From positions 1 to 64,000 of IMG/VR virus record IMGVR_UViG_3300036851_000411: 64,000 bases of DNA. One strand, given 5' to 3'. Positions 110-35,366 of the stretch are shown piece by piece. Under the pieces are notes generated by a model. That model saw only the letters and a list, made by a program, of their open reading frames with translations, had not been told where the DNA came from and did no database searches. Made by a program: the position numbers and the translations under genes. The stretch's first letter is position 1. Each line of letters begins with the position of its first letter. The stretch comes from a virus.

Positions 110-183
110 CGGGACGTAGCGCAGCCCGGTAGCGCACCTGAATGGGGTTCAGGGGGTCGCGGGTTCAAATCCCGCCGTCCCGA
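110..183 (+). tRNA. tRNA-Pro (anticodon GGG)
   Basis: A full cloverleaf can be drawn. The acceptor arm CGGGACG pairs with CGTCCCG, the anticodon stem CCTGA/TCAGG closes a 7-base loop with anticodon GGG (reads CCC), and the T arm GCGGG/CCCGC carries TTCAAAT. The discriminator is A and CCA is not encoded. It closely resembles bacterial tRNA-Pro. It could be a phage tRNA gene or a host gene at an attachment site; no integrase is visible to support the second reading. Confidence 0.93.
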
Positions 184-204
184 TAGAATCGTAAGCATGG
201 AAGT

Positions 205-3596: not shown

Positions 3597-4089
3597 CGGT
3601 GCCGTCGTTGGGGCGGCCGGCGCTTCCGAGATTCGGTTCTACCGCGCAAGCGACCAGCCGTACGGCGCGTTCTCGAATCTCTTGCGTTGCCAGATGGTGT
3701 TCGAGGACCGGGCGTTCCCGACCGCCGAACACGCTTACCAGTTCGGCAAGGCGGCGAAGCACAACGTTCGCGAGTGGCTCATGTCGGCGCCGTCGCCATC
3801 GCTCCTCGCGGTCACGGCGCACAACCTCCTGCCGTGGGACATCGTCCCCAACTGGACGCGCATCAAGGTCGACCGCATGCGCCGCGTGCTCCACGCGAAG
3901 TTCACTCAGCACGAGGATCTCCGCGCCCTGCTGATCGGCACCGGGAGCGCCCGCATCGTCGAGTGCGCCACGGTCAACAACGCCGTCAACCGGTTCTGGG
4001 GCGAGGTGAACGGGAAGGGCGAGAACACGCTCGGCGTACTCCTCATGGAGCTGCGGGCCGAGATGGCGACGGAGGCGACCAATGCCTAA
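3589..4089 (+). CDS. NADAR (YbiA-like) domain protein
   Basis: A 166-residue single-domain protein of the NADAR family. Visible marks are the FYRASDQPYGAFSN block near residue 16, FPTAEHAYQ near 46, and a C-terminal FWGEVNGKGENTLG block. Known NADAR proteins cleave N-glycosidic bonds of ADP-ribose derivatives; some remove ADP-ribose from DNA and act as antitoxins to DarT-type enzymes. A phage copy could reverse host ADP-ribosylation of phage DNA, or act on NAD pathway products; this is inference. Its start is in ATGCCTAACG, 8 nt inside the previous gene. Confidence 0.85.
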   Translation: MPNGAVVGAAGASEIRFYRASDQPYGAFSNLLRCQMVFEDRAFPTAEHAYQFGKAAKHNVREWLMSAPSPSLLAVTAHNLLPWDIVPNWTRIKVDRMRRVLHAKFTQHEDLRALLIGTGSARIVECATVNNAVNRFWGEVNGKGENTLGVLLMELRAEMATEATNA

Positions 4090-4726
4090 GCCGGCGCCTA
4101 ACGGCTTCTCGGTTTTGGCCGCGGATCCGCCGTGGTTCTACGCGCACTCGCGGTCCACCTCGCGCAAGATCGACACGCACTACCCGACAATGCGCACCGC
4201 GGACATCGCCGCGCTCGACGTGGCCGCGCTCTGCGATCCCGCCGGCGCCGTCTGCTACCTCTGGGTACCAGCACCCAAGCTGTTCGAAGGGATGCTGGTC
4301 CTCGCGGCGTGGGGCTTCGCGTACAAGACGCATCGCGTGTGGGACAAAATGCAGATCGGCATGGGCTACTGGACGCGTGGGAAGCATGAGGACCTGCTGA
4401 TCGGTACCACCGGGCGGAAGTCACCGCCCGCACCGGCCAACCGCCCGCCGTCTCTCCTGCACGAGGCGCGGTCCAAGGTCCACTCCCGGAAGCCGACGCT
4501 CGCACGCCAGCAGATCGAAGCGGCGCATCCACACGAAGAACGCCTCGAGCTGTTCGCGCGGGAGACGCACCCGGGGTGGACCGCGTGGGGACACGGCGTC
4601 GAGAGCGCCGTGTCCATCGGCACGCGTGCCCGCTCGACGATGCTCCCGCTCGTCAACCGCATCCAACACGACATCGCCCGGCAGCTGCTCGTGCCGATGG
4701 GCGAACCTATGGAGGGCGAGGAATAG
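4082..4726 (+). CDS. MT-A70 family DNA N6-adenine methyltransferase
   Basis: A 214-residue methyltransferase of the MT-A70 class. The catalytic DPPW is at residues 15-18, close to the N-terminus as usual, with a LWVPAPKL strand and an ERLELFARE block further on. It should transfer a methyl group from SAM to N6 of adenine. In phages such solitary enzymes usually protect DNA from host restriction; no restriction gene is adjacent. The start lies in ATGCCTAA, 8 nt inside the NADAR gene, so the two are probably translated together. Confidence 0.9.
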   Translation: MPKPAPNGFSVLAADPPWFYAHSRSTSRKIDTHYPTMRTADIAALDVAALCDPAGAVCYLWVPAPKLFEGMLVLAAWGFAYKTHRVWDKMQIGMGYWTRGKHEDLLIGTTGRKSPPAPANRPPSLLHEARSKVHSRKPTLARQQIEAAHPHEERLELFARETHPGWTAWGHGVESAVSIGTRARSTMLPLVNRIQHDIARQLLVPMGEPMEGEE

Positions 4727-5959: not shown

Positions 5960-6164
5960 GACTCTCCTCGCGCGCATCGTGGCTGACGCCGATCGCGCCC
6001 GAGGACCGAAGCAACATGTGTGCGTCGTCGTTGTGACCGAGGTGCCCGACGGGATGCAGCTCAACAGCGCGCACACGGTGGGATGGACGGGCGACACGTG
6101 GGCGATGATTCTCGCCCGCGCCGCGCACGGCGTGCCGGGACAGCGCGGGGGTGCCCGTGGCTGA
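5949..6164 (+). CDS. Small hypothetical protein
   Basis: A 71-residue unknown protein starting at GTG 5949, overlapping the previous gene by 11 nt. It has a strong beta strand (HVCVVVVTEV). The C-terminal Gly/Arg-rich tail overlaps the next gene. Confidence 0.55.
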   Translation: MDAETLLARIVADADRARGPKQHVCVVVVTEVPDGMQLNSAHTVGWTGDTWAMILARAAHGVPGQRGGARG

Positions 6165-7041
6165 GCACACCGGAATCGAATGGTGCGACAAGACGTTCAA
6201 CATCGCGTGGGGCTGCGAGAAGCACTCGCCGGGCTGCAAGAATTGCTACGCCGAGCGCGACTCGACGCGCTACGGACACAAGGTGTTCGGACCCGCGAAG
6301 ACGACCGAACGCCGGACCTTCGGCGATGGCCACTGGGCGGAGCCGCTCAAGTGGAACCGCGACGCGATGGTCACCGGCATCCGGTTGCGTGTGTTCTGCT
6401 CGAGCATGGCCGACTGGGCCGAAGATCACCCGACGATCGCGGCCCAGCTCCCGCGGATGTGGGCGCTTATCCGCGCAACGCCGTGGCTCGACTGGCTCCT
6501 GCTCACGAAGCGCATCGAGCGCGTGTCGCAGCTCCTGCCCGACGACTGGGGCGCGGGCTACGCCAACGTGTGGCTCGGAACGTCCGTCGAGAACCAACAC
6601 TACGCCGACAAGCGGATCCCGCACCTCATCGCCATCCCGGCGGCGATTCGGTTTCTGTCGTGCGAGCCGCTGCTCGGACCGGTCGATCTCAAGCCATGGC
6701 TCCGGAAGGTCCGCGAGGACCTACTGATGACAGACGGCCAGTACGATGAGGCGAAGCACGAGGCGAACAACGCCACGAAGATCTTCGCCCATCCGGATGC
6801 GTGGGCGATCCACTGGGTGATCGATGGCGGGGAGTCCGGCTTCACCGCGCGGCCGGCGGAACTCGACTGGTACCGCCAGCATCGCGACCAGTGCGACCAC
6901 TACGGCGTGCCGTATCTGCTCAAGCAGCTCGGCGGTCGTGGCGTGACGAAGGAACAGGTGCGCGGCGGGCCGTATGCGCTGCTCGACGGGAAGCTGCACC
7001 GCCAGTGGCCGAAGCCGCATCCGGAGGCGCTCCATGCCTAA
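6151..7041 (+). CDS. Phage Gp37/Gp68 family (three-Cys motif) protein
   Basis: A 296-residue protein matching the phage Gp37/Gp68 (DUF5131) family. Marks are the N-terminal GIEWCDKTFN block, a CX6CX2C cluster at about residues 22-32 (GC...GCKNCYAE), the SMADW, LLLTKR and GTSVEN blocks, FLSCEPLLGP, and IDGGESG. The cysteine arrangement recalls radical-SAM-like or metal-binding proteins, but the reaction is not known. GTG at 6151 or 6157 may be the start. It ends in an ATGCCTAA junction. Confidence 0.88.
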   Translation: MPVAEHTGIEWCDKTFNIAWGCEKHSPGCKNCYAERDSTRYGHKVFGPAKTTERRTFGDGHWAEPLKWNRDAMVTGIRLRVFCSSMADWAEDHPTIAAQLPRMWALIRATPWLDWLLLTKRIERVSQLLPDDWGAGYANVWLGTSVENQHYADKRIPHLIAIPAAIRFLSCEPLLGPVDLKPWLRKVREDLLMTDGQYDEAKHEANNATKIFAHPDAWAIHWVIDGGESGFTARPAELDWYRQHRDQCDHYGVPYLLKQLGGRGVTKEQVRGGPYALLDGKLHRQWPKPHPEALHA

Positions 7042-7624
7042 GAAAAAGCTGGAGGCTGTGGCCACCTCGCGCGGGCTTGAGCTGGTCGAGGCACTCCGTG
7101 CACTTCGGCGGGATGCGAAGTACCCGCCCGACGTTGAGTTCCACGGCAACTGGACTGCGTGGCGGAGCGGCGCTTCGTGTTTCCTCGGTGGTGTGTTCCT
7201 CACGAACATCTATCGCCGTCAGGATTGCGTCGACGGTTGGGATGCCGGGTTCGCGTGGGCCGAACGCGAGTGGGCGAAGCGCGTCGCGCCGATCTTGGCG
7301 GCGATCGAGCAGAACGAGCGGGCCATGGTGCCGGCAATGCCGACCGAGAAGGCGCTCGCGATCATGGCGCTCTACAGCGCCCACGTGCTCGCCAGTTTCA
7401 CCGGTGGTGATTCACCACCGGCCCTTGCCACGTATTCGCTTCGTGAGATCGTCGAGGCGAAAGCCATCGTCGAGGCGTTGAACGCTGAAGAGTCCAAGAA
7501 TGGTTATCGGACCATCTATGTCGTCCCCGACGATGAGATGATCGCGGTGTTGTACGTCGCATGCCGCATCGAGAATGGCGCCGCGCTGGTGGCGATCGAA
7601 ACGATGGCGGTAGCGCATGCCTAA
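7034..7624 (+). CDS. Hypothetical protein
   Basis: A 196-residue unknown protein starting in ATGCCTAA, 8 nt inside the previous gene, and ending in another such junction. The N-terminal half contains aromatic and Cys residues (FHGNWTAWRSGASCF); the C-terminal half is helical and acidic. No motif was recognised. Confidence 0.7.
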   Translation: MPKKKLEAVATSRGLELVEALRALRRDAKYPPDVEFHGNWTAWRSGASCFLGGVFLTNIYRRQDCVDGWDAGFAWAEREWAKRVAPILAAIEQNERAMVPAMPTEKALAIMALYSAHVLASFTGGDSPPALATYSLREIVEAKAIVEALNAEESKNGYRTIYVVPDDEMIAVLYVACRIENGAALVAIETMAVAHA

Positions 7625-9536
7625 CGTACCAGCTACCCGGGCGTGGCTCGACCCGGACGAGATCATCGTGGACAGCTTCGCCGGCGGCGGCGGCGCCTCG
7701 CAAGGGATCACCGAGGCGCTTGGCCGCGCGCCCGACATCGCCATCAACCACGACGCGGAAGCGATCGCGCTCCACAAGGCGAACCATCCGACGACGGAAC
7801 ACTTCCCCGAGAACGTCTGGAAAGTCGACCCGGTGACCGTCTGTCGCGGCCGACGCGTCGGGCTGATGTGGCTCTCGCCGGACTGCAAGCACTTCTCGAA
7901 AGCGAAGGGCGGCAAGCCGGTTGAGAAGAAAGTCCGCGGCCTCGCGTGGGTCGCGGTGCGATGGGCAAAGGCGGTGCGGCCGAGGGTGATCGTCCTCGAG
8001 AACGTCGAGGAATTCCAACACTGGGGCCCGCTCTTCCGGTCGGACCACCCGAACAGGAAGCTGCGCGACCGTCCAGACCCTGAGCGGAAGGCGCTCACGT
8101 TCCGCCGGTTCGTGGGCCGGCTGCGTGCGTTAGGCTACGTCGTCGAGTGGCGGGAGCTCCGTGCCTGCGACTACGGTGCGCCGACGACGCGCAAGCGCTT
8201 GTTCCTCGTCGCGCGCTGTGACGGCCAGCCGATCCACTGGCCCGAAGCGACGCACGGGAAGCACCGCCTACTGCCCTGGCGCACGGCGGCCGAGTGCATC
8301 GACTGGTCGATCCCGTGTCCGTCGATCTTCCTCACGCCCGTCGAGGCGAAGTCGTTGGGGGTCAGGCGTCCGCTCGCCGATGCGACGCTCCGTCGAATAG
8401 CCCGTGGCGTACAGCGCTATGTTATCGACGCGGCGGATCCGTTCATCGTCAGCTACTACGGTGCGAAGCGAGATGGTGACGACCGCACCGCGCCCCTCGA
8501 TGGGCCATTGCCGACGCAGACGACGGAGAACCGCTTCGCGGTGGTCGATCCGTTCATTGTGCCGGTGAGTCACAGCGGCGATGATCGCACGCACTCGGTC
8601 CACGATCCACTCCGCACCATCACCGGCGGGTCACGCGGGACGCACGCGATCGTCCAGCCGTTCATCGCTGGCGTTGGTGGAAGGATGGGGCAGTCCGCCG
8701 AGCGCGGCGTCGACCGTCCGTACCAGACGATCACCGCGAAGGCCGATGCCGCGTTGGTCGTCCCGACGCTCATTCAAACGAGCTACGGCGAAGACAAGAA
8801 GCGGAATGGCGGAATGGGACAGCCGCCTCGCGTGCTCGATCTTGGGGCACCGCTAGGTACGGTCGTCGCGGGCGGGATCAAGCATTCGCTCGTGTCGGCG
8901 TTCCTCGCCAAGCACTACGGCGGGCATGAGACGCCGGGGTCGTCGCTCGCGCAGCCGATCGACACGGTGACCGGCACCGATCATCACGCAGTCGTGAGCG
9001 CGCACATCGCGAAGCACTACGGCGGTCGCGTGGGATCGTCGATGGACGAGCCGCTGCACACGGTGACAGCCGACAGCGTGCATCACTCGGTCGTCGCGTC
9101 CTCGCTCGTGAAGCTCAAGGGCACGGCGAAGGACGGCCAACAGCTCTCGCTGCCGCTCCATACCGTGCAGGCGGGCGGGAACCACTACGGCGAGGTGCGG
9201 GCCTTCCTCATGAAGTATCACGCCACCGGCGGGCAGTGGAACGCGCTCAGCGCGCCGATGCCAACCGCCGTCGCGAAGGACAGCATCGCGCTCGTGACGG
9301 TGGCCGGCGCCCAGTACGTCATCGCTGACATCGGCATGCGGATGCTCGCGCCGCGGGAGCTCTACCACGCGCAGGGCTTCCCGTCGACCTATCGCATTGA
9401 CATCGAGTTCAACGGCAAGCCGCTGAGCAAGACGGCCCAGGTGAAGATGTGCGGCAATTCTGTCTGTCCTCCGCTCGCGGCGGCCATCGTCCGCGCGAAC
9501 TTCGCCACCACGGACCGGCAGGAGGTGGCAGCGTGA
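7617..9536 (+). CDS. DNA (cytosine-5) methyltransferase with repeated recognition region
   Basis: A 639-residue C5 methyltransferase. Motif I is DSFAGGGGASQG (about residues 19-30), motif IV is a variant SPDCKHFSKAK in place of the usual PCQ block, motif VI is VLENVEEF, and the C-terminal motifs are ELYHAQGFP and a GNSVCPP block. Between them, about residues 275-560 hold at least seven copies of a unit of about 35 residues with the pattern F-I/L-x-KHYGG, then DxPLxTVT, then HHAVV, which must form or extend the target recognition region. That is unusual for a C5 enzyme and may mean multi-site specificity. Likely role: protection from restriction. Confidence 0.92.
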   Translation: MPNVPATRAWLDPDEIIVDSFAGGGGASQGITEALGRAPDIAINHDAEAIALHKANHPTTEHFPENVWKVDPVTVCRGRRVGLMWLSPDCKHFSKAKGGKPVEKKVRGLAWVAVRWAKAVRPRVIVLENVEEFQHWGPLFRSDHPNRKLRDRPDPERKALTFRRFVGRLRALGYVVEWRELRACDYGAPTTRKRLFLVARCDGQPIHWPEATHGKHRLLPWRTAAECIDWSIPCPSIFLTPVEAKSLGVRRPLADATLRRIARGVQRYVIDAADPFIVSYYGAKRDGDDRTAPLDGPLPTQTTENRFAVVDPFIVPVSHSGDDRTHSVHDPLRTITGGSRGTHAIVQPFIAGVGGRMGQSAERGVDRPYQTITAKADAALVVPTLIQTSYGEDKKRNGGMGQPPRVLDLGAPLGTVVAGGIKHSLVSAFLAKHYGGHETPGSSLAQPIDTVTGTDHHAVVSAHIAKHYGGRVGSSMDEPLHTVTADSVHHSVVASSLVKLKGTAKDGQQLSLPLHTVQAGGNHYGEVRAFLMKYHATGGQWNALSAPMPTAVAKDSIALVTVAGAQYVIADIGMRMLAPRELYHAQGFPSTYRIDIEFNGKPLSKTAQVKMCGNSVCPPLAAAIVRANFATTDRQEVAA

Positions 9537-12802: not shown

Positions 12803-13671
12803 CGGTGCTCCGTCGCGGCCCGTGCTTCGGTACCACGGCGGCAAGTGGCGTCTCGCGCCCTGGCTTCTCGGCGTGTTCCCGCCGCACCACGTGTACACGG
12901 AATCGTTCGGGGGGGGCAAGCGTGTTGCTCCGTAAACCGCGCTCCTATGCCGAGGTCTACAACGATCTCGACGACGAGATCGTGAACCTGTTCCGGGTGC
13001 TCCGAGACGACGGTGCCGCGCTCCTGCGCGCAGTGGAGCTCACGCCATACGCTCGCACCGAGTTTCACGGCAGCTTCCGTCCGACGAGCGACCCGATCGA
13101 GCAGGCGCGTCGCACCGTGGCGCGGAGCTTCATGGGGTTCGGCGGGAACCTCACGCGAGCGAATAGAGACCAGTCGCCACAACGCACCGGGTTCCGCAAC
13201 TACAGCTCGACGAACCGGCGAGCGACGCCGGCGAGTGACTGGCGCAACTGGCCTTCCGGGCTGGTGGAGATCATCGACCGCCTGCGAGGCGTGATCGTCG
13301 AGCACCGCGACGCGATGGTGGTTCTGCTCGCGCACGATGGGCCGAACACGCTCCACTACGTCGACCCGCCCTATGTCCATGTGACGCGTGGGTATGATGC
13401 CGGCGGATCGCATCGCGGCTACCGCCACGAGATGACCGATGATGGCCATCGCGCGCTCGCTGCCGTGCTCCGCGGGCTCGAGGGGATGGTCGTGCTGTCT
13501 GGCTACCCCTGCGATCTCTATGACCGCGAGCTCTATCCGGACTGGACACGCTACGAACGACCGCACGTTGCCGACGGCGCGCGCCCGCGCACCGAGGTCG
13601 TCTGGCTCAACCCCGCGTGCGTCGCTGCGCTCCATTGCAGCCGCGCGCAATTGGAGATCCCGCATGCCTAA
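12792..13671 (+). pseudogene. D12-class (Dam-like) adenine methyltransferase, split by a G8 run
   Basis: The first frame (ATG 12792, codons up to a stop at about 12937) gives LRYHGGKWRLAPWLL and YTESFGGG, the N-terminus of a D12 adenine methyltransferase. It then runs out of frame in eight G residues (12909-12916). The second frame continues as ASVLLRKPRSYAEVYNDL through the catalytic DPPY to 13671. Seven or ten Gs would restore one protein of about 290 residues (FGGAS or the canonical FGGGAS). Causes could be a sequencing error, phase variation, ribosomal slippage or true decay. Annotated as broken as written. Confidence 0.85.
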
Positions 13672-17804: not shown

Positions 17805-18131
17805 ATGAGCATCGAAGCGCTCCGCCAGGCATTCAAGGATGGATGCCGGCACAACGCGTGTGCGATGTACGACGAGGCCGAAGTTGAGAGCGAGGCCTCC
17901 GAGCGGTTTCCCACGCCCGCGATCGCACCGGAGGACCGGTCCACCCAGGTCTATCCGAGGCTGACGCCGCGCGGGTCTCGGCTACTCGCGGCGTTCGACA
18001 ACGCCGCGTTCGCGTGCGGCGAGTGGTCGCAGGATGATGACGAGCCGTTCGTGGCCGTCTACCGACGCTCTCGGCGAGCCCAAAAGGCGCTGCTCGACTA
18101 CTTCGTCGAGTTGGAGGCGCGGACGCCGTGA
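17805..18131 (+). CDS. Hypothetical protein
   Basis: A 108-residue acidic unknown protein that ends on a GTGA overlap with the Mom-like gene, so the two may be coupled in expression or function. Confidence 0.62.
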   Translation: MSIEALRQAFKDGCRHNACAMYDEAEVESEASERFPTPAIAPEDRSTQVYPRLTPRGSRLLAAFDNAAFACGEWSQDDDEPFVAVYRRSRRAQKALLDYFVELEARTP

Positions 18132-18925
18132 ACAAGCGATGGCGCGATCGCTCGCAGCGCTGGCGCGCGCCGGGCGACGTGTTCGACCCGCGTCGCTTCG
18201 CGGTCGATGGGATCGCCGACGACACCCGGCCGAAGGAATTCGTCGAGCAGCATCACTACGCGGCGAGTTATCCGGCGGCCGTCTTTCGCGTCGGGCTGTT
18301 CGGTCCGCGGGCCGCGCTCGTCGGCGTCGCGGTATTCAGCGTCCCGCCACAGCAGGCCGCGCTCCCGAAGTGGACCGGCGTCACGTTAGGCGAGGGCGCG
18401 GCGGAGCTCGGCCGCTTCGTGCTCCTCGACGACGTGGGCTACAACGCCGAGACGTGGTTCCTCTCGCGCGCGTTTCGCCTCCTCCGAACGCACAAGCACT
18501 ATCGACGCATCCTCTCCTACGCGGATCCGCTCGAGCGCCCGGAGATCGCGAAGCCCGCGCACTGGGGAACGGTCTATCAGGCGGCGAACGCAACGTTTGC
18601 GGGTCGATCGGAAGCCCGGTGGCAACACATTGCGCCGACAGGCGAGGTCGTCAGCCGGCGGATGCTCAACAAGATCCGCCAGGGCCATCAGGGATGGCAG
18701 TATGGAGTCGACTGGCTGAGAGAGCGCGGCGCGCCAGTGCAGGGAACTGCCGAGCCGTCCCGTGGATGGGTCGATCGGGTGCTCTCAGCGTGGCGACGTG
18801 TGTACCACCCCGGCAACCTCGCCTATGTGTTCGGGCTCGACGATCGCGCGAAGTCGGCGCTCCGGACGCTCCACGCTGGTGGGTTACCCTACGTGCGCCC
18901 TGCGGCGGCTTGTGTGCAATGGTAG
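18128..18925 (+). CDS. Mom-like DNA modification protein (GNAT-type)
   Basis: A 265-residue protein similar to the phage Mu Mom family. After EFVEQHHYAASYP comes a GLFGPRAALVGVAVFSVP strand pair, the block AAELGRFVLLDDVGYNAETWFL, and ILSYADP with YQAANATFAG. Mom converts adenine in DNA to a carbamoylmethylated form by a radical-independent iron-linked route on a GNAT scaffold and blocks many restriction enzymes. Here it joins four methyltransferases. No Com-like regulator was recognised, though the Cys-rich 17586 gene just upstream is a candidate. Confidence 0.82.
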   Translation: MNKRWRDRSQRWRAPGDVFDPRRFAVDGIADDTRPKEFVEQHHYAASYPAAVFRVGLFGPRAALVGVAVFSVPPQQAALPKWTGVTLGEGAAELGRFVLLDDVGYNAETWFLSRAFRLLRTHKHYRRILSYADPLERPEIAKPAHWGTVYQAANATFAGRSEARWQHIAPTGEVVSRRMLNKIRQGHQGWQYGVDWLRERGAPVQGTAEPSRGWVDRVLSAWRRVYHPGNLAYVFGLDDRAKSALRTLHAGGLPYVRPAAACVQW

Positions 18926-20786: not shown

Positions 20787-20921
20787 AAGGCTGTGCGGCA
20801 ACGCTCAGACGGCTGTGCGGCGACGGAACGGCAGCGCCACGAGTCAGAGCCGGCATGTACGGGCAATGCCAAGCCGTACAAGGCGTTACGCGAGGTGTGG
20901 TGTCACACGCTCGTACACTGT

Positions 20922-20937
20922 TGCAACACGTGTTGCA
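20922..20937. promoter_or_regulatory. 16-bp perfect palindrome TGCAACACGTGTTGCA
   Basis: A perfect inverted repeat, followed by two further TGTTGCAC half-site-like words up to 20950. It is a likely operator for a dimeric regulator. Confidence 0.6.
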
Positions 20938-20956
20938 CACAATGTTGCACAAAGTG

Positions 20957-20997
20957 ATGTGAAACATATTTCACATGCATGCAACACCGTGTATAAT
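20957..20997 (+). promoter_or_regulatory. Operator overlapping a sigma70-like promoter
   Basis: Arms ATGTGAAA (20957-20964) and TTTCACAT (20969-20976) are perfect inverted repeats around CATA. TTTCAC (20969-20974) and TATAAT (20992-20997), 17 bp apart, form a promoter that points right into the control region, antisense to the tRNA. Confidence 0.6.
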
Positions 20998-21039
20998 CAA
21001 CGGTGGGTGGCGGCCGAATCATTCAGTCGTCACTCGGAA

Positions 21040-21133
21040 GGAGCGTGGGGGATTCGAACCCTCGGCCCGGTGCGCTAACACCGGACGCCTCATTGATAGT
21101 GAGGTGCTTTCAGCCAGACTCAGCCAACGCTCC
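21040..21133 (-). tRNA. Class II (serine-like) tRNA with unusual AUC anticodon loop
   Basis: On the - strand the acceptor GGAGCGT pairs with ACGCTCC, the D arm is serine-like, and the anticodon stem CCTCA/TGAGG closes the loop CTATCAA. The long variable arm CCGGTG/CACCGG is that of tRNA-Ser/Leu, and the T loop is TTCGAAT with one mismatch in the stem. The loop gives anticodon AUC, which would read Asp GAU rather than Ser. The discriminator appears to be T and CCA is not encoded. It may be a recoding tRNA, a decoy or a decayed gene. Confidence 0.7.
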
Positions 21134-21419
21134 GCCTTCAGGAACTCGGGCCGGTCGAGGGATCACTCCTTCGGCCGGTTCGTGCATCTACCACCGTCGC
21201 TCACGAACATTTGAAGGGCTGGGCGACAGGTGGCGGCACAAGCATGCTAATACATAGTGTGGATCTTCGCAAAGCGTACAAATGAACGGGTGACAAACCT
21301 AACCGTCATGAATGCAACGTGTTACAACCCATTCACCGGCCGGCGCTAGAAGTCGTTGTCACGCGTTGGGTTGTTTCATCTCGCCACCCCAGTATAGGTG
21401 CCGCCGCAAGCGCGCGGTA

Positions 21420-21446
21420 TTGACGCTAGCGTCAGATAGATAGACT
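21420..21446 (+). promoter_or_regulatory. Palindrome TGACGCTAGCGTCA at a possible promoter
   Basis: A perfect 14-bp palindrome (21421-21434) overlaps TTGACG, with TAGACT 15 bp further on. A promoter under tight operator control is possible. Confidence 0.45.
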
Positions 21447-21492
21447 ACTGGTGCGACGACGAGCCGCTTCTCTGAAGAAGTGGGCTTAGGCG

Positions 21493-21501
21493 TTATCCAC
21501 A
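21493..21501 (+). promoter_or_regulatory. Perfect DnaA box TTATCCACA
   Basis: An exact consensus DnaA-binding 9-mer, one base before the parS-like site. A single box is not an origin by itself. Confidence 0.7.
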
Positions 21502-21502
21502 T

Positions 21503-21518
21503 TGTTTCACGTGAAACG
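21503..21518. promoter_or_regulatory. parS-like ParB site
   Basis: TGTTTCACGTGAAACG differs from the bacterial chromosomal parS consensus only in its last base. It would probably be bound by the host ParB (or a phage one outside the window). The pairing with a DnaA box is typical of chromosome origin regions and odd in a phage. Confidence 0.85.
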
Positions 21519-21552
21519 TTCATAACTCCACGCTGGAGACCCGGCGGATCTA

Positions 21553-21577
21553 TTGCGGATTATGCTTTAATCACATA
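21553..21577 (+). promoter_or_regulatory. Class I palindrome box before the packaging block
   Basis: TATGCTTTAATCACATA (21561-21577) with TTG 8 bp ahead. It is the first of the class I boxes that lead the late modules. Confidence 0.6.
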
Positions 21578-21676
21578 ATCTGAGCGCGCACCTGGCGACC
21601 GCCACGGTGCGCGCGCTGCGTTCGGGCACCTCGCCGAGGCAGTGCGCTCCGGACACGACGCCCCCGGCTCCCACGA

Positions 21677-22408
21677 GTGCGGGGGCGTCGATGGCCTCTA
21701 CTCGGTCTGGTGGAGCGGCGCGTGCCACGGCGACATCCTGCACCTCGTCCTATCCGACGAAGCCAGCGAGCGAAGCGCACGGCGCTCGATGCGATACGAC
21801 GCAGGCCTGCCGTTCCGCTGGAGCTCTGCGAGGCGGGTGGGAGTGAGTTTGCCCCGGCGCTCGATGTGGCCACGTGGCTCCGCGACACGTTCGTCACCGA
21901 AGGCTCGCCGCTCTACAACGAGGACCACAAGCACCTCGCCTTCGCGGCGATCGGCGTGCTGTGGACCAACGTTGCGAACTCAGGGCAGCAGCGCACGGTG
22001 CTCGCGACCGCGGAGATGCCGACGCCCAAGGGTGCGCGGTGGACGATCGCGCGCGCCAAGTATCAGCTGGCGCAATGGTTCGGCGACGTGCCGGACTTCG
22101 TCATCACGCTGTCGGCGCCGCTCCTCTCGGACGTGGATGACGCAACGTTCTGTGCGGTCCTCGAGCACGAGCTCTATCACTGCAGCCAGGCGCGGAATGA
22201 GTTCGGCGCGCCGAAGTGGCATCTCGATGGCTCGCCGGTCTTCGGGATCCGTGGTCACGATGTCGAGGAGTTCGTGTCGATCGTCGCGCGCTACGGTGCT
22301 GGAGCGACGCGGGTCGGTGCCCTCGTCCAGGCCGCCCAGCAACGACCGCTCGTCCAGGCGGCATCGATCGTTGGTGCCTGCGGGACGTGCATCGCGAGGG
22401 CCGCATGA
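21677..22408 (+). CDS. Putative phage metallopeptidase
   Basis: The frame from about residue 58 on (FAPALDVATWLRDTF, YNEDHKHLAFAAIGVLWTNV, a WFGDVPDFVITL block, EHELYHCSQARNEFGAP and RGHDVEEF) matches a conserved phage metallopeptidase family; HELYH is the zinc site. The start is not clear. The only ATG is 21677, but the first 60 residues look like shadow sequence; GTG at 21866 is the nearest start to the conserved part. Another open frame covers 21642-21860, so a frameshift upstream cannot be excluded. Function in phages is unknown. Confidence 0.75.
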   Translation: MRGRRWPLLGLVERRVPRRHPAPRPIRRSQRAKRTALDAIRRRPAVPLELCEAGGSEFAPALDVATWLRDTFVTEGSPLYNEDHKHLAFAAIGVLWTNVANSGQQRTVLATAEMPTPKGARWTIARAKYQLAQWFGDVPDFVITLSAPLLSDVDDATFCAVLEHELYHCSQARNEFGAPKWHLDGSPVFGIRGHDVEEFVSIVARYGAGATRVGALVQAAQQRPLVQAASIVGACGTCIARAA

Positions 22409-22609: not shown

Positions 22610-23167
22610 ATGGCGACACTCGTGGACGAAGTCAAAGCCTTCATCGTGCAGCGACTTGCGTGTTGGGATAGCCCGAAGCAGGTCGCCGCGGCCGTCACCG
22701 AAGAATTCCGCATCAAGATGGACCGGCGTCAGGTCGAGAAGTACGACGCCACTCGGGCGGGGAAGAAGCCGGCGAAGAAGTGGGTCGCACTGTTCACGGC
22801 GACTCGCAACCGATTCGAGGACACGATCGACGAGATCCCCGCGGCGAAGAAGGCGGTCCGCGTTCGCCGGCTCGATCGCATGGCGCTCAAGGCGGAAGAG
22901 TCGGGGAACTTCCCGCTCGCGAAGGAGCTCCTCGAGACGGTCGCGAAGGAGGTTGGCGGGGCGTTCACCAACCGGCGCGAGCTGACGGGCGCTGGTGGCG
23001 GACCAATTCAGGCGAAGGTCGATGGCGTGTTGTCGGCCGAGGAGATGGCGGCGCGGCTTCGCACGCTGCTCGATCGCACGACCGCGGTGGTGCACTCGGC
23101 GCCGGCCGTGGTCGCGCCACCCATCGCCCAACCTCCATCGATTCCTCCAGCGGCGGTGTCGCCATGA
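22610..23167 (+). CDS. Small terminase subunit (DUF2280-like)
   Basis: A 185-residue protein matching DUF2280-type small terminases: MATLVDEVKAFIVQRLAC start, SPKQVAAAVTEEF helix-turn-helix, KKWVALFTATRNRFED, and KEVGGAFTNRRELTG near residue 120. It should bind the packaging site and feed DNA to the large subunit at 26501. The C-terminus is a Pro/Val tail. TerS and TerL are separated by eight genes, which is unusual. A 23-codon frame (22539-22610) ends at its start (TGATG) and may be a coupling leader. Confidence 0.85.
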   Translation: MATLVDEVKAFIVQRLACWDSPKQVAAAVTEEFRIKMDRRQVEKYDATRAGKKPAKKWVALFTATRNRFEDTIDEIPAAKKAVRVRRLDRMALKAEESGNFPLAKELLETVAKEVGGAFTNRRELTGAGGGPIQAKVDGVLSAEEMAARLRTLLDRTTAVVHSAPAVVAPPIAQPPSIPPAAVSP

Positions 23168-26500: not shown

Positions 26501-28114
26501 ATGCTTACCGCCGCCGAGATCGAAGGGCTCCTCGAGCGGGTCCGGTCCGGCACCCTGACGCTCGATCAGCAACGCGAGCTCTCGTTCCTCCTCTGTGATG
26601 TGCCGCCGGCGCCGCCGGCCATCCCGTTCACGGACTTCGTTGCCGAGGCGAAGCCCGACTATCGGTGGTGGGAGTGGAACACCCGACTCGCCGCGCGGCT
26701 GCAGGACGTGGCAGATGGGAAGATCCGTCGCCTCATGGTGTTCTGCCCGCCGCGCTATGGAAAGTCCGAGCTCACATCGAAGCTGTTCCCGGCCTACTAC
26801 CAGTACCGCTTCCCAATACGGCGCGTCGGGCTCAGTGCGTACGGCGAGGACCGCGCGCACGAGTATCTGAGCCACGCGCAGGAATACTATCTCCGCGTCG
26901 GCGGCAAGCTCCGCTCGTTGCGCGATGCGGGGCTCCGTCGTGGGTTCGAGGTCGAAGGCCGAGGCGGCATGTGGGCCGCGGGTCTCAATGGCGCGTTGCC
27001 TGGCCTCGGCTTCCACCTTGGCATTATCGACGATCCGCTGAAGAACATGGCGGAGGCGGCCAGTAAGGTCATCCAGTCGCGGAACATCAAGTGGTACAAC
27101 ACGACGTACTACAGCCGCCGGGAACCGAACGACGCGATCATTCTCATCACCACGCGGTGGCACCCGCGGGACCTCGCCGGGCAGATCCTCGAGCAGGAGC
27201 GCATCAACAAGGACGACGAGGGCGCGCTCGAAAACTGGCACATCGTCATCTACGACGAGACCCGCGACGAGAAGGAGCCCTACGACCTGCCGGACAATTG
27301 CTCGCTGGAGCCCGACTGGCGTAAGCACGGGGAGCTGCTGTGCCCCGAGCGATGGCCGGAGTCGGAGGTCAAGAAGAACCGCGCCAAGGGGACGTACAGC
27401 TATAGCACGGTCTACCAGCAGCGCCCGAAGACTTCGGAGGGCACGCGGTTCAAGGCTGAGTGGTTCCCCACGGTCGACGCCATGCCGGTGGATGTCACGG
27501 CGCGCGTGAGGTATTGGGATCTGGCGGGCACCGACGAGCCGAGCGACGAAGACTCGGATCCCGACTGGACGGTCGGCTTCCGCGTGTCACGCGGGCGGCA
27601 GGACCAGATCATCTATTTCGAGAAGATGAAGCGGTTCCGGAAGAAACCCGGCGGCCGCAATGCCACCATGCGTGAGACAGCGGAGGCCGACGCGCGGGAA
27701 TTCGGATCGGAGGAGCAACCCAATCGGCACGCGGTCGTGCAGTGGTGGGAAGGCGAGTCGGGGGTCGATGGCGGTGATCGCAATAAGGCGCTCGGCGCGG
27801 CGCTCGCCGGCCACATCTGCAAATTCGATCGACCCATCGCGAGTAAGGAAATGCGTCACGAGGTCCTCGCGGGGCAGGCGGAGGTCGGGAATGTGCGGCT
27901 AGTGGAGCCCAAGCGCGATGCGCATGGCAACCTGCTCGATGGGGAAGAGGACTGGATTCCAACGTTCCTCGACGAGATGACGAGCGTGCCGTTCGGGGCG
28001 CACGACGACATCGCGGACGCGGCGAGCGATGGCACGGCCAAAGTGCTCGACGCGCCCGAGCCCATTCTCGCCGAGATCGTGACGGTGGAGCTCAAGAGTC
28101 CCTTCGCGCTCTAG
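26501..28114 (+). CDS. Terminase large subunit
   Basis: A 537-residue packaging motor. The ATPase has Walker A CPPRYGKSE (about 82-90), Walker B GIIDDP (174-179), and the coupling block ILITTRWHPRDLAG. The nuclease domain begins near residue 338 with RYWDLAGTDEPSDEDSD, giving the acidic metal site, and continues with YFEKMKRF and a C-terminal HDDIADAASDG. Length and order are typical of the Terminase_6 type. It cleaves and translocates phage DNA into proheads at the portal. Confidence 0.95.
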   Translation: MLTAAEIEGLLERVRSGTLTLDQQRELSFLLCDVPPAPPAIPFTDFVAEAKPDYRWWEWNTRLAARLQDVADGKIRRLMVFCPPRYGKSELTSKLFPAYYQYRFPIRRVGLSAYGEDRAHEYLSHAQEYYLRVGGKLRSLRDAGLRRGFEVEGRGGMWAAGLNGALPGLGFHLGIIDDPLKNMAEAASKVIQSRNIKWYNTTYYSRREPNDAIILITTRWHPRDLAGQILEQERINKDDEGALENWHIVIYDETRDEKEPYDLPDNCSLEPDWRKHGELLCPERWPESEVKKNRAKGTYSYSTVYQQRPKTSEGTRFKAEWFPTVDAMPVDVTARVRYWDLAGTDEPSDEDSDPDWTVGFRVSRGRQDQIIYFEKMKRFRKKPGGRNATMRETAEADAREFGSEEQPNRHAVVQWWEGESGVDGGDRNKALGAALAGHICKFDRPIASKEMRHEVLAGQAEVGNVRLVEPKRDAHGNLLDGEEDWIPTFLDEMTSVPFGAHDDIADAASDGTAKVLDAPEPILAEIVTVELKSPFAL

Positions 28115-28198: not shown

Positions 28199-29653
28199 GT
28201 GCATCGGATGTCCAAACGGCGGCGCGGCGGCACTGCCCTCGACGCACTCGCCGGGTCGCCCGGCCCATCCGGTGGTCGGTCGAGCCCCTATGTCGAGCTG
28301 GGCTCCACCGGCCTCTCCAACGTCGGCGGGTTCGTTCGCGCGGATTTCCTCCCGCAGCTCGTCGGCCGGCAGGGGATCCTCGCTTATCAGGAGATGGAGA
28401 ACAACGATGCGCTGATCGGCGGCATCCTCTACGCCATGCAGATGCTGATCCGCTCGGGCGAGTGGACGATCGAGCCCAACGAGCTGGCGACGAAAGCGGC
28501 CGGACCGGGCGGGAAGATCAGCCCCGCGGCGCAGAACGCGGTCGACTTCATGCGCGATGCGTTGTTCGAAAGCATGGATCACCCGTTCGATGAGCTGATC
28601 ACCGACGCGCTCACGATGCTGCCCTACGGGTTCGCGCCCTGCGAGTCCGTGCTCAAGAAGCTTCCGGCGTCCAACCTCGGGCCCGCGCGCATCGGCTTCA
28701 AGTCAGTCCGGCTCCGCGCCCAGGATACGCTCTACAAGTGGGAGTTCGATCCGGAGTCCGGTGACCTGTTAGGCATGTGGCAACAGGACTTCCAGAACCC
28801 GGTCGCCTACATCCCGTACGACCGGTTGGCGTTGTTCCGCACCAACTCGAGCCGTGGCAATCCCGAGGGACGCTCGGTTCTCCGCAACTCGTACAAGTAT
28901 TACAAGCGCAAAGGGGCGATCGAGGAGGCCGAAGGTCGCGCCGCACTCCGATCGGCTGGTCTCGTGGTGATGCGGGTGCCGTGGAGCATCATGAACCCGA
29001 CCGCCGGCCAGATCGAGCGAAACATCTTCGCGCAGCTCAAGACCGCGCTCGCCAGCATCGCCGAGGACCGGCAGGGCGCGGTCATCCTGCCGAGTGATCC
29101 GTACGAGGGTCAGCAGGGCAAGCGTGGCGGCTATCAGTACGACATCGACTACAAAGTCGCCGATGGCCGGCGATCGGCCGACATGAGCACGCTGGTCGAG
29201 CGCATGGACAAGCGCATCGCCGGATCCGTGCTCGCCGACTTTATCCTCATCGGGCAGCAGGCTGCCGGTTCGTACGCCATGCACGGCGACAAGACCGAGA
29301 TGTTCACGAACGCGTTAGGTGGGTACAACCGCGTCATCGAGGCGGAGCTCAACCGCCGGACGATCCGACGATGGTGGCACCTCAACGGCCTGCCGGACGA
29401 GCTGCGTCCGCGACTCAAGCCGAAGAAGCTGTCGAAAGAGCAGCTCGAGAAGATCGGCGCGTTCGTCGGGCAACTGGCGGCTGCCGGCATGCTCCCGCCG
29501 GACAAGGCGTTGTCGAACAGACTGCTGGGGATGGCCGAGCTGCCACCGTCCGAGGTCCCGCTTCCGCCGCCGAGGAGCGCGACGCCCCCACCGGGGCGGC
29601 CTAACGCGCTCACAGGGACGGATCCCGACGACGAGGAGCACGCTGATGCCTGA
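28199..29653 (+). CDS. Portal protein, DUF935 (Mu gp29-like)
   Basis: A 484-residue portal. Marks are ENNDALIGGILYAMQMLI, GEWTIEP, DALTMLPYGFAPCESVLKK, a GNPEGRSVLRNSYKYYKRK block and AGSYAMHGDKTEMF near the C-terminus. It forms the dodecameric ring at one vertex for DNA entry and tail joining. The Pro-rich end is probably disordered. It ends in a variant junction ATGCCTGA. Mu-like portals usually travel with a Mu F-like protein, which is found two genes on. Confidence 0.92.
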   Translation: MHRMSKRRRGGTALDALAGSPGPSGGRSSPYVELGSTGLSNVGGFVRADFLPQLVGRQGILAYQEMENNDALIGGILYAMQMLIRSGEWTIEPNELATKAAGPGGKISPAAQNAVDFMRDALFESMDHPFDELITDALTMLPYGFAPCESVLKKLPASNLGPARIGFKSVRLRAQDTLYKWEFDPESGDLLGMWQQDFQNPVAYIPYDRLALFRTNSSRGNPEGRSVLRNSYKYYKRKGAIEEAEGRAALRSAGLVVMRVPWSIMNPTAGQIERNIFAQLKTALASIAEDRQGAVILPSDPYEGQQGKRGGYQYDIDYKVADGRRSADMSTLVERMDKRIAGSVLADFILIGQQAAGSYAMHGDKTEMFTNALGGYNRVIEAELNRRTIRRWWHLNGLPDELRPRLKPKKLSKEQLEKIGAFVGQLAAAGMLPPDKALSNRLLGMAELPPSEVPLPPPRSATPPPGRPNALTGTDPDDEEHADA

Positions 29654-34367: not shown

Positions 34368-35366
34368 ATGCCGTTCGCCCCGACCCGCGGTCAGATCCAC
34401 GTCGACCGCCTGCTGACGAACATCACGATCGGCTTCTTGCAGGATGCGCGAGCGTTCGTCGCACCGCGCGTCTTCCAGCGCGTTCCTGTCCTCAAGCAGA
34501 GCGACCGGTACGCCGTGTATGACCGCGGCTTCTTCTTCCGGAACCAGATGAAGAAGCGGGCGCCGGGCACCGAAGCGGCACGTGTCCACTACGCGATCGA
34601 CAACACGCCGACGTACTACGCCGACGTGTGGGCGCTCGCCAAGGACATCGCTGACCAGGACCGCGCCAACTACGACCAGCCGCTGCTCGGCCCGGACCGT
34701 GAGGCGTCGCTGTTCCTCGGTCAGCAGGCGCTCCTGAACCAGGAGACGGAGTTCGTCACCAACTGGTTCAAGACGGGCGTCTGGACGACCGAATACACCG
34801 GCGTCGCGTCGAGCCCGAGTGGCCCGCAGTTCCTCCAGTGGAACGACGCGGCGTCGAATCCGATCGAGGACATCCGTGCGCGGAAGCGCGCGGCCCGCGA
34901 GCTCACCGGGTACGAACTCAACATCCTCACGCTCGGCCGCGCGGTCTACGACGCGCTGCTCGATCACCCCGACATCATCGACCGCATCAAGTACGGCCAG
35001 ACGCCTGGCCAGCCGGCGATGGCGAACGAGCAGATCCTCGCGCAGCTGTTCGAAGTCGACGAGGTGAATGTCATGAACGGCATTCAGACGACTTCGAACG
35101 AAGGCGCGACCAACACGTTCGCCTTCATCGGCGGCAAGCACGCGATGCTCACGTACCGCCCACCGGCCCCGGGGCTCTTCGTCCCAGCAGCTGGCTACAC
35201 GTTCGTGTGGACGGGCTACCAGGGCAGCGCGGGCGAGCTCGGCACGGAAGTCAGCCAGTACCGGATGCCGGAGCTCAAGAGCGACCGCACCGAGATCGAG
35301 GCCGCGTACGACCAGAAGCTCGTGTCGGCCGACCTCGGCGTGTTCTTCGCCAGCGCCGTCGCGTAA
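34368..35366 (+). CDS. Major capsid protein
   Basis: A 332-residue protein that fits an HK97-fold major capsid family without a long N-terminal delta domain: ITIGFLQDARAFVAPRVF, a VLKQSDRYAVYDRGFFFR strand, REASLFLGQQALLNQETEF, NILTLGRAVYDALLDHPDI, and a closing FVWTGYQGSAGELG with YRMPELKSDRTEIE. The ATG follows a CAGGAG ribosome site. It follows decoration and scaffold genes as expected. Confidence 0.9.
   Translation: MPFAPTRGQIHVDRLLTNITIGFLQDARAFVAPRVFQRVPVLKQSDRYAVYDRGFFFRNQMKKRAPGTEAARVHYAIDNTPTYYADVWALAKDIADQDRANYDQPLLGPDREASLFLGQQALLNQETEFVTNWFKTGVWTTEYTGVASSPSGPQFLQWNDAASNPIEDIRARKRAARELTGYELNILTLGRAVYDALLDHPDIIDRIKYGQTPGQPAMANEQILAQLFEVDEVNVMNGIQTTSNEGATNTFAFIGGKHAMLTYRPPAPGLFVPAAGYTFVWTGYQGSAGELGTEVSQYRMPELKSDRTEIEAAYDQKLVSADLGVFFASAVA

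Follow-up and report, generated by a model that had tools for sequence, protein, structure and literature searches.

We analysed a window of 64,000 nucleotides (the whole stretch of viral DNA under study, from an 82,133-bp IMG/VR contig), in which the following features carry the argument:

110-183, plus strand: tRNA-Pro(GGG), the probable attachment site, its 3' part forming half of a repeat
142-185, plus strand: 44-bp direct repeat (att core) in the 3' half of tRNA-Pro, with copy 2 at contig 69046-69089, beyond the window
20787-21865, no strand: 1,079-bp gap without called genes, early-type genes to its left and the packaging/late block to its right
20922-20937, no strand: perfect 16-bp palindrome TGCAACACGTGTTGCA, operator-like, with a CACGTG centre as in parS, yet not a parS
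20970-20997, plus strand: sigma-70-like promoter match TTCACA-16-TATAAT, 11/12, a consensus match alone
21039-21133, minus strand: tRNA-like gene with a long variable arm, anticodon called ATC
21493-21501, plus strand: consensus DnaA box TTATCCACA, single copy, one base from parS
21503-21518, no strand: parS site TGTTTCACGTGAAACG, with a perfect 14-bp palindromic core at 21504-21517
21866-22408, plus strand: gene 44, putative phage metallopeptidase (PF18894, HELYH motif), the first called gene after parS
22610-23167, plus strand: gene 46, phrog_546
26501-28114, plus strand: gene 54, terminase large subunit (phrog_38), starting 5.0 kb downstream of parS
28208-29653, plus strand: portal protein (phrog_113)
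34368-35366, plus strand: major head protein (phrog_1005)

A direct read of the window gives the DnaA box at 21493-21501, a T as spacer and the parS site at 21503-21518, confirming what the initial annotation had described as a DnaA box followed after one base by a near-perfect parS. ParB and parS form a very widespread system of bacterial chromosome segregation, and the palindrome by which its chromosomal sites are recognised, GTTTCACGTGAAAC within the consensus TGTTTCACGTGAAACA, is present here: the core is exact (14/14), the full site matches at 15 of 16 positions, and the sole mismatch falls on the outermost base. The site is the single match at up to three mismatches in the 64,000-nt window, where shuffles expect 0.07, and its 14-mer is unique in the entire contig even when one mismatch is allowed. 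Base composition predicts about 7e-5 copies of the core per contig and 2e-6 in the gene-free gap.

The DnaA box invites a different reading, in which the locus would be a DnaA-dependent origin with a cluster of boxes and an AT-rich unwinding element. We find one exact copy of TTATCCACA in the window, and the local GC content around parS is about 50-58%. The expectation of such a box arising by chance within 20 bp of parS is about 1e-4, a figure that carries no correction for the post-hoc choice of motif. The box was also considered as a general companion of parS and rejected, a loose DnaA-like box lying near two of about 100 viral parS sites, in related contigs. With a single box and no cluster, a role for it is not supported.

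The gap that holds the site has a GC content of 60%, compared with 67% for the contig. The earlier description of it as a gene-free hub stands insofar as no gene is called at 20787-21865, and fails insofar as the minus-strand tRNA-like gene lies inside. That gene is an odd phage tRNA: it combines a Ser/Leu-type long variable arm with an Asp anticodon (ATC), and CCA is not encoded. Elsewhere in the gap, two blocks at 20870-20997 and 21229-21330 have GTACAA, TGCAAC and ACGTGTT motifs in common, TGCAACACGTGTTGCA included, and a GTGAAA-N4-TTTCAC repeat within these blocks overlies the promoter match. Half-sites GTTGCA/TGCAAC, related to TGCAACACGTGTTGCA, are found around 20920-20990 and 21307-21328. 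The two blocks are likely operators of a phage regulator.

The genes on either side of the gap follow an orderly plan, with early-type genes on the left and, on the right, the metallopeptidase, a probable small terminase, terL, portal, head and tail genes. Gene 46 is probably the small terminase subunit, by analogy with cultured relatives in which a gene (DUF2280 or unnamed) sits between metallopeptidase and terL. Since the terminase, portal, head and tail genes all lie to the right, parS leads the packaging/late block, and terL starts 5.0 kb further on. The early region also carries three DNA methyltransferases and a Mom-like modification gene (4082-4726, 7617-9536, 12922-13671, 18128-18925), a set that suggests heavy anti-restriction.

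The anatomy of the element is that of an integrated prophage. The 44-bp direct repeats at 142-185 and 69046-69089 make the phage look like a 69-kb prophage integrated in the tRNA-Pro gene, and between these repeats falls a weak match to tyrosine recombinases (65917-66393; E 6e-5, short of the family cut-off). Outside the 142-69089 repeats come a clear integrase (70524-71642), one excisionase-like gene and one Rep-like gene (72152-73096), which are probably part of a second, tandem element. One tRNA-Pro seems to host two different integrative elements side by side, with genes at 65014-66462 and 70524-73096. The annotation's remark that the window has no parA or parB gene was borne out and extends further: the whole contig has no match to ParB_N (PF02195) or to the ParA-type AAA_31 (PF13614) at a threshold as loose as E<=10, in a search whose controls gave matches. 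A self-contained phage or plasmid ParABS, with parA and parB on the element, is accordingly not what this phage carries.

These observations bear on the textbook use of parS, namely that the phage persists as an extrachromosomal low-copy plasmid segregated by the host ParABS. SGI1 offers a precedent for this (PMC10954446), and the initial annotation had proposed a plasmid-like prophage. A phage-plasmid would replicate by plasmid means and would not integrate, whereas here integration is indicated by the repeats at tRNA-Pro, which resemble att sites, and by the recombinase candidate that they enclose; this weakens the proposal. No plasmid Rep was found within 142-69089 among the genes scanned against family libraries, the Rep-like gene being outside the repeats. 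In 39 parS-bearing virus records of at least 13 kb, among the matches listed, a tyrosine integrase is present in four and an AAA_31 ParA in none, so neither lifestyle is typical of viruses with the site. Altogether, we consider plasmid partition unlikely.

The host can be approached through two kinds of similarity. The closest capsid relatives in bacterial genomes belong to Alphaproteobacteria and Acidobacteriota, and tRNA-Pro identity reaches 95% at best in Acidobacteriota compared with 88% in Alphaproteobacteria (about 390 sampled genomes each). As an exact host marker the tRNA-Pro was set aside, its best identity in Acidobacteriota being 95% and no exact match appearing in viral contigs. 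The exact parS occurs in one or two copies in six of seven genomes with distant capsid relatives and is absent from the seventh; bacterial genomes of 3.6-8.2 Mb thus have no more than 0-2 copies each. In the three Acidobacteriota draft genomes among them that have parS, the two copies are within about 20-80 bp of each other.

Most relatives of the phage lack the site. Phage DNA matches to the contig are weak, a nearest-relative search with the terminase alone and a search with the joint DnaA-parS 25-mer both returned nothing in viral contigs, and no close relative was found. Of four close cultured records, none has parS, and no site at two or fewer mismatches was found in the stretches fetched from DSL-LC04, 023Pt_psg01, HTVC023P, ct7L0027, CRP-902 and Pag-Yong1. 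A copy is present in the cultured pelagiphage HTVC027P: it reads CGTTTCACGTGAAACA, falls within an unannotated short ORF and is 4.1 kb upstream of terL. Among virus records, the site occurs in one of 50 metallopeptidase relatives and one of 43 capsid relatives. Two distant relatives carry the core: G104 (51% capsid identity), where it is upstream of the portal and capsid genes, and the prophage G049, where it is flanked by a cI-like repressor and the early operon. An origin of the latter copy in flanking host DNA was rejected in view of PHROG matches (repressor, Erf, exonuclease) around it. The suggestion that relatives be checked for parS gave a negative result for about 98% of sampled viral relatives; since that majority is without the site, parS appears to have been gained and lost among them.

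The scarcity of the site among distant relatives and the lack of close ones might favour a chance palindrome or a functionless relic of host origin DNA. We hold this to be very improbable. The expectation of about 7e-5 per contig speaks against chance, as does the strong overrepresentation of this 16-mer in viral contigs, described below. No host genes are recognised around the site, and the earlier idea that it comes from host DNA near the origin fits poorly with a site that is 21 kb into the phage and has early-type genes on one side and the packaging block on the other.

Across IMG/VR, the parS 14-mer occurs at 120 loci or more, compared with whole-collection counts of 20 and 18 for two composition-matched control palindromes (reversed parS, and one sharing TCACGTGA); the parS figure sets a lower bound on the enrichment, and the contigs may include misassigned elements. 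Among the matches listed, 68 of 119 non-redundant loci extend to the full 16-mer TGTTTCACGTGAAACA, compared with about 1 in 16 by chance (p ~1e-49), whereas the reversed control shows mixed flanks. The sites also prefer intergenic DNA: the longest covering ORF is below 90 aa at 51 of the 119 sites listed, compared with 2/35 controls and 15% of random positions. Where parS does fall within long ORFs, it is read in both readable frames, mostly as VSRET or FHVK, in unrelated and often linker-like peptides, so that no protein motif accounts for these copies. A coding motif was rejected as the cause of the enrichment on this ground and because nearly half of the listed sites lie outside long ORFs. 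The 16-mer extension, the short covering ORFs and the unrelated peptides together make it seem that selection acts on the DNA site.

Most of these viral sites look like orphans. In the 39 records mentioned above, ParB_N is above the cut-off in three and reaches E<=0.001 in five, among the matches listed; since many records are fragments, absent parAB is no proof. In four contigs (L018, L030, L075, L088) parS is present three to five times, clustered over about 1 kb or as close pairs, and no ParB was found in L018, the sole multi-copy contig checked. Homologues of gene 15 (6151-7041; DUF5131) were seen, among about 330 loci, in just four that bear parS (L010, L020, L232, L333), which may be coincidence; as a companion of parS, DUF5131 was dropped, four loci being too few.

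A site without its proteins might also serve as a decoy, titrating or redirecting host ParB during lytic growth and thereby disturbing host segregation. Such a strategy needs the site alone and would work for lytic phages, in keeping with most listed parS-bearing records being without an integrase. One site per genome, however, makes a weak sponge unless copy number is high, and placement upstream of terL is left unexplained; we regard a decoy as highly improbable.

That placement is the second regularity of the viral sites. With this phage's own TerL as query, a related TerL was detected in 23 of 120 listed parS loci and in one of 38 control loci (Fisher p 0.01). Among these 23 listed TerL loci, 18 have every parS site upstream of terL with respect to the strand of that gene, and in seven of the 18 parS is within 140 bp of the terL start. 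A PHROG scan of the nearest genes identified the terminase large subunit as the commonest neighbour of parS among the matches listed: phrog_38 accounts for 11 of 97 left and 2 of 99 right flanking genes (13), with further TerL families besides, and is not listed among 63 control flanking genes. The TerL proteins of parS loci group by identity into about seven lineages, and the TerL-linked cases are therefore not independent. Taken from sequence, the position ahead of terminase genes hints at a late-phase role rather than plasmid partition.

One such role would be control of late genes or lysogeny, with host ParB spreading from parS to repress or tune the packaging/late operon in the prophage. 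Several observations agree with it: parS heads the packaging/late block here, terL is the commonest viral neighbour, with parS mostly upstream on its strand among the matches listed, and the G049 copy separates a cI-like repressor from the early operon. The sop system of N15 reportedly facilitates late gene expression (Ravin 2008, as cited in PMC11652158), which also speaks in favour. In P. aeruginosa, ParB represses promoters adjoining parS3 and parS4 (PMC5521831). On the other side, a large intergenic gap often precedes terL, so that the position may reflect mere room; parS itself has no promoter evidence; the TerL-linked cases, falling into about seven lineages, are not independent; and distances vary between 18 bp and 4.7 kb. 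Late-gene control, in essence an operator read by a host protein, is a specific form of ParB loading, and our confidence in the two overlaps; on its own we rate it as a doubtful possibility.

We prefer to read the 16-bp site as an orphan parS at which host chromosomal ParB is loaded in cis, an interpretation that the sequence evidence makes probable. Use of host ParB, already raised in the initial annotation, is the natural interpretation of a genuine-looking parS in phage DNA from which parA and parB are absent. Under this model, the proposed steps are as follows:

(i) CTP-bound host ParB would nucleate on the phage palindrome.

(ii) ParB would then slide onto the adjoining phage DNA.

(iii) The phage genome, whether prophage or replicating molecule, would thereby be tied to the host ParA and SMC machinery, with the site coming from the phage and the proteins from the host.

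ParB binding, its spreading and any benefit to the phage are steps that we infer. Among the possible consequences, we rank placement or segregation of replicating phage DNA first, ParB-spreading control of late/packaging genes second and SMC loading third. The absence of the site from most relatives counts against the loading-site model. Segregation can be disturbed when a chromosomal parS sits ectopically, far from oriC (PMC4368675), and a similar disturbance by the parS of an integrated phage might be a further point against it.

Comparison with known systems helps to define what is particular to this phage. It shares with chromosomal parS (TGTTTCACGTGAAACA) the 14-bp core and the CACGTG centre, and its outermost mismatch is of the kind seen in P. 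aeruginosa parS1 and parS4, which are functional despite that single deviation (PMC4368675). Unlike chromosomal parS, the phage copy is single, lies outside the origin domain and has no parAB in cis. The parS-only sites of SGI1 use the ParABS of an IncC plasmid, and the likeness lies in sites that stand alone on a mobile element and rely on the ParAB of another replicon; SGI1, however, mimics a plasmid parS in two copies, whereas the phage uses the chromosomal type (PMC10954446). The phage-plasmids P1 and N15, mycobacteriophage RedRock and cyanophage Mic1 likewise have a centromere-like site in a phage genome, but each brings its own ParA/ParB and a site type of its own, whereas this phage encodes neither protein and appears integrated.

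We found no description of an orphan parS pattern in phages in the open-access literature searched. The scans suggest that many unrelated phages carry parS but not the proteins that read it, often just ahead of packaging genes, so that phages may routinely borrow the segregation protein of their hosts. As a tentative generalisation, which we put forward as conceivable and somewhat short of an even bet, the orphan chromosomal-type parS could be a recurrent cis-element of tailed phages that infect many hosts, placed ahead of packaging genes and loading host ParB, and thereby SMC, for late expression, packaging or positioning. If phages do repeatedly carry the site and not the proteins, host ParB would be a point of contact between phage and cell that has gone unrecognised, and parS would mark phages that dock onto the segregation machinery.
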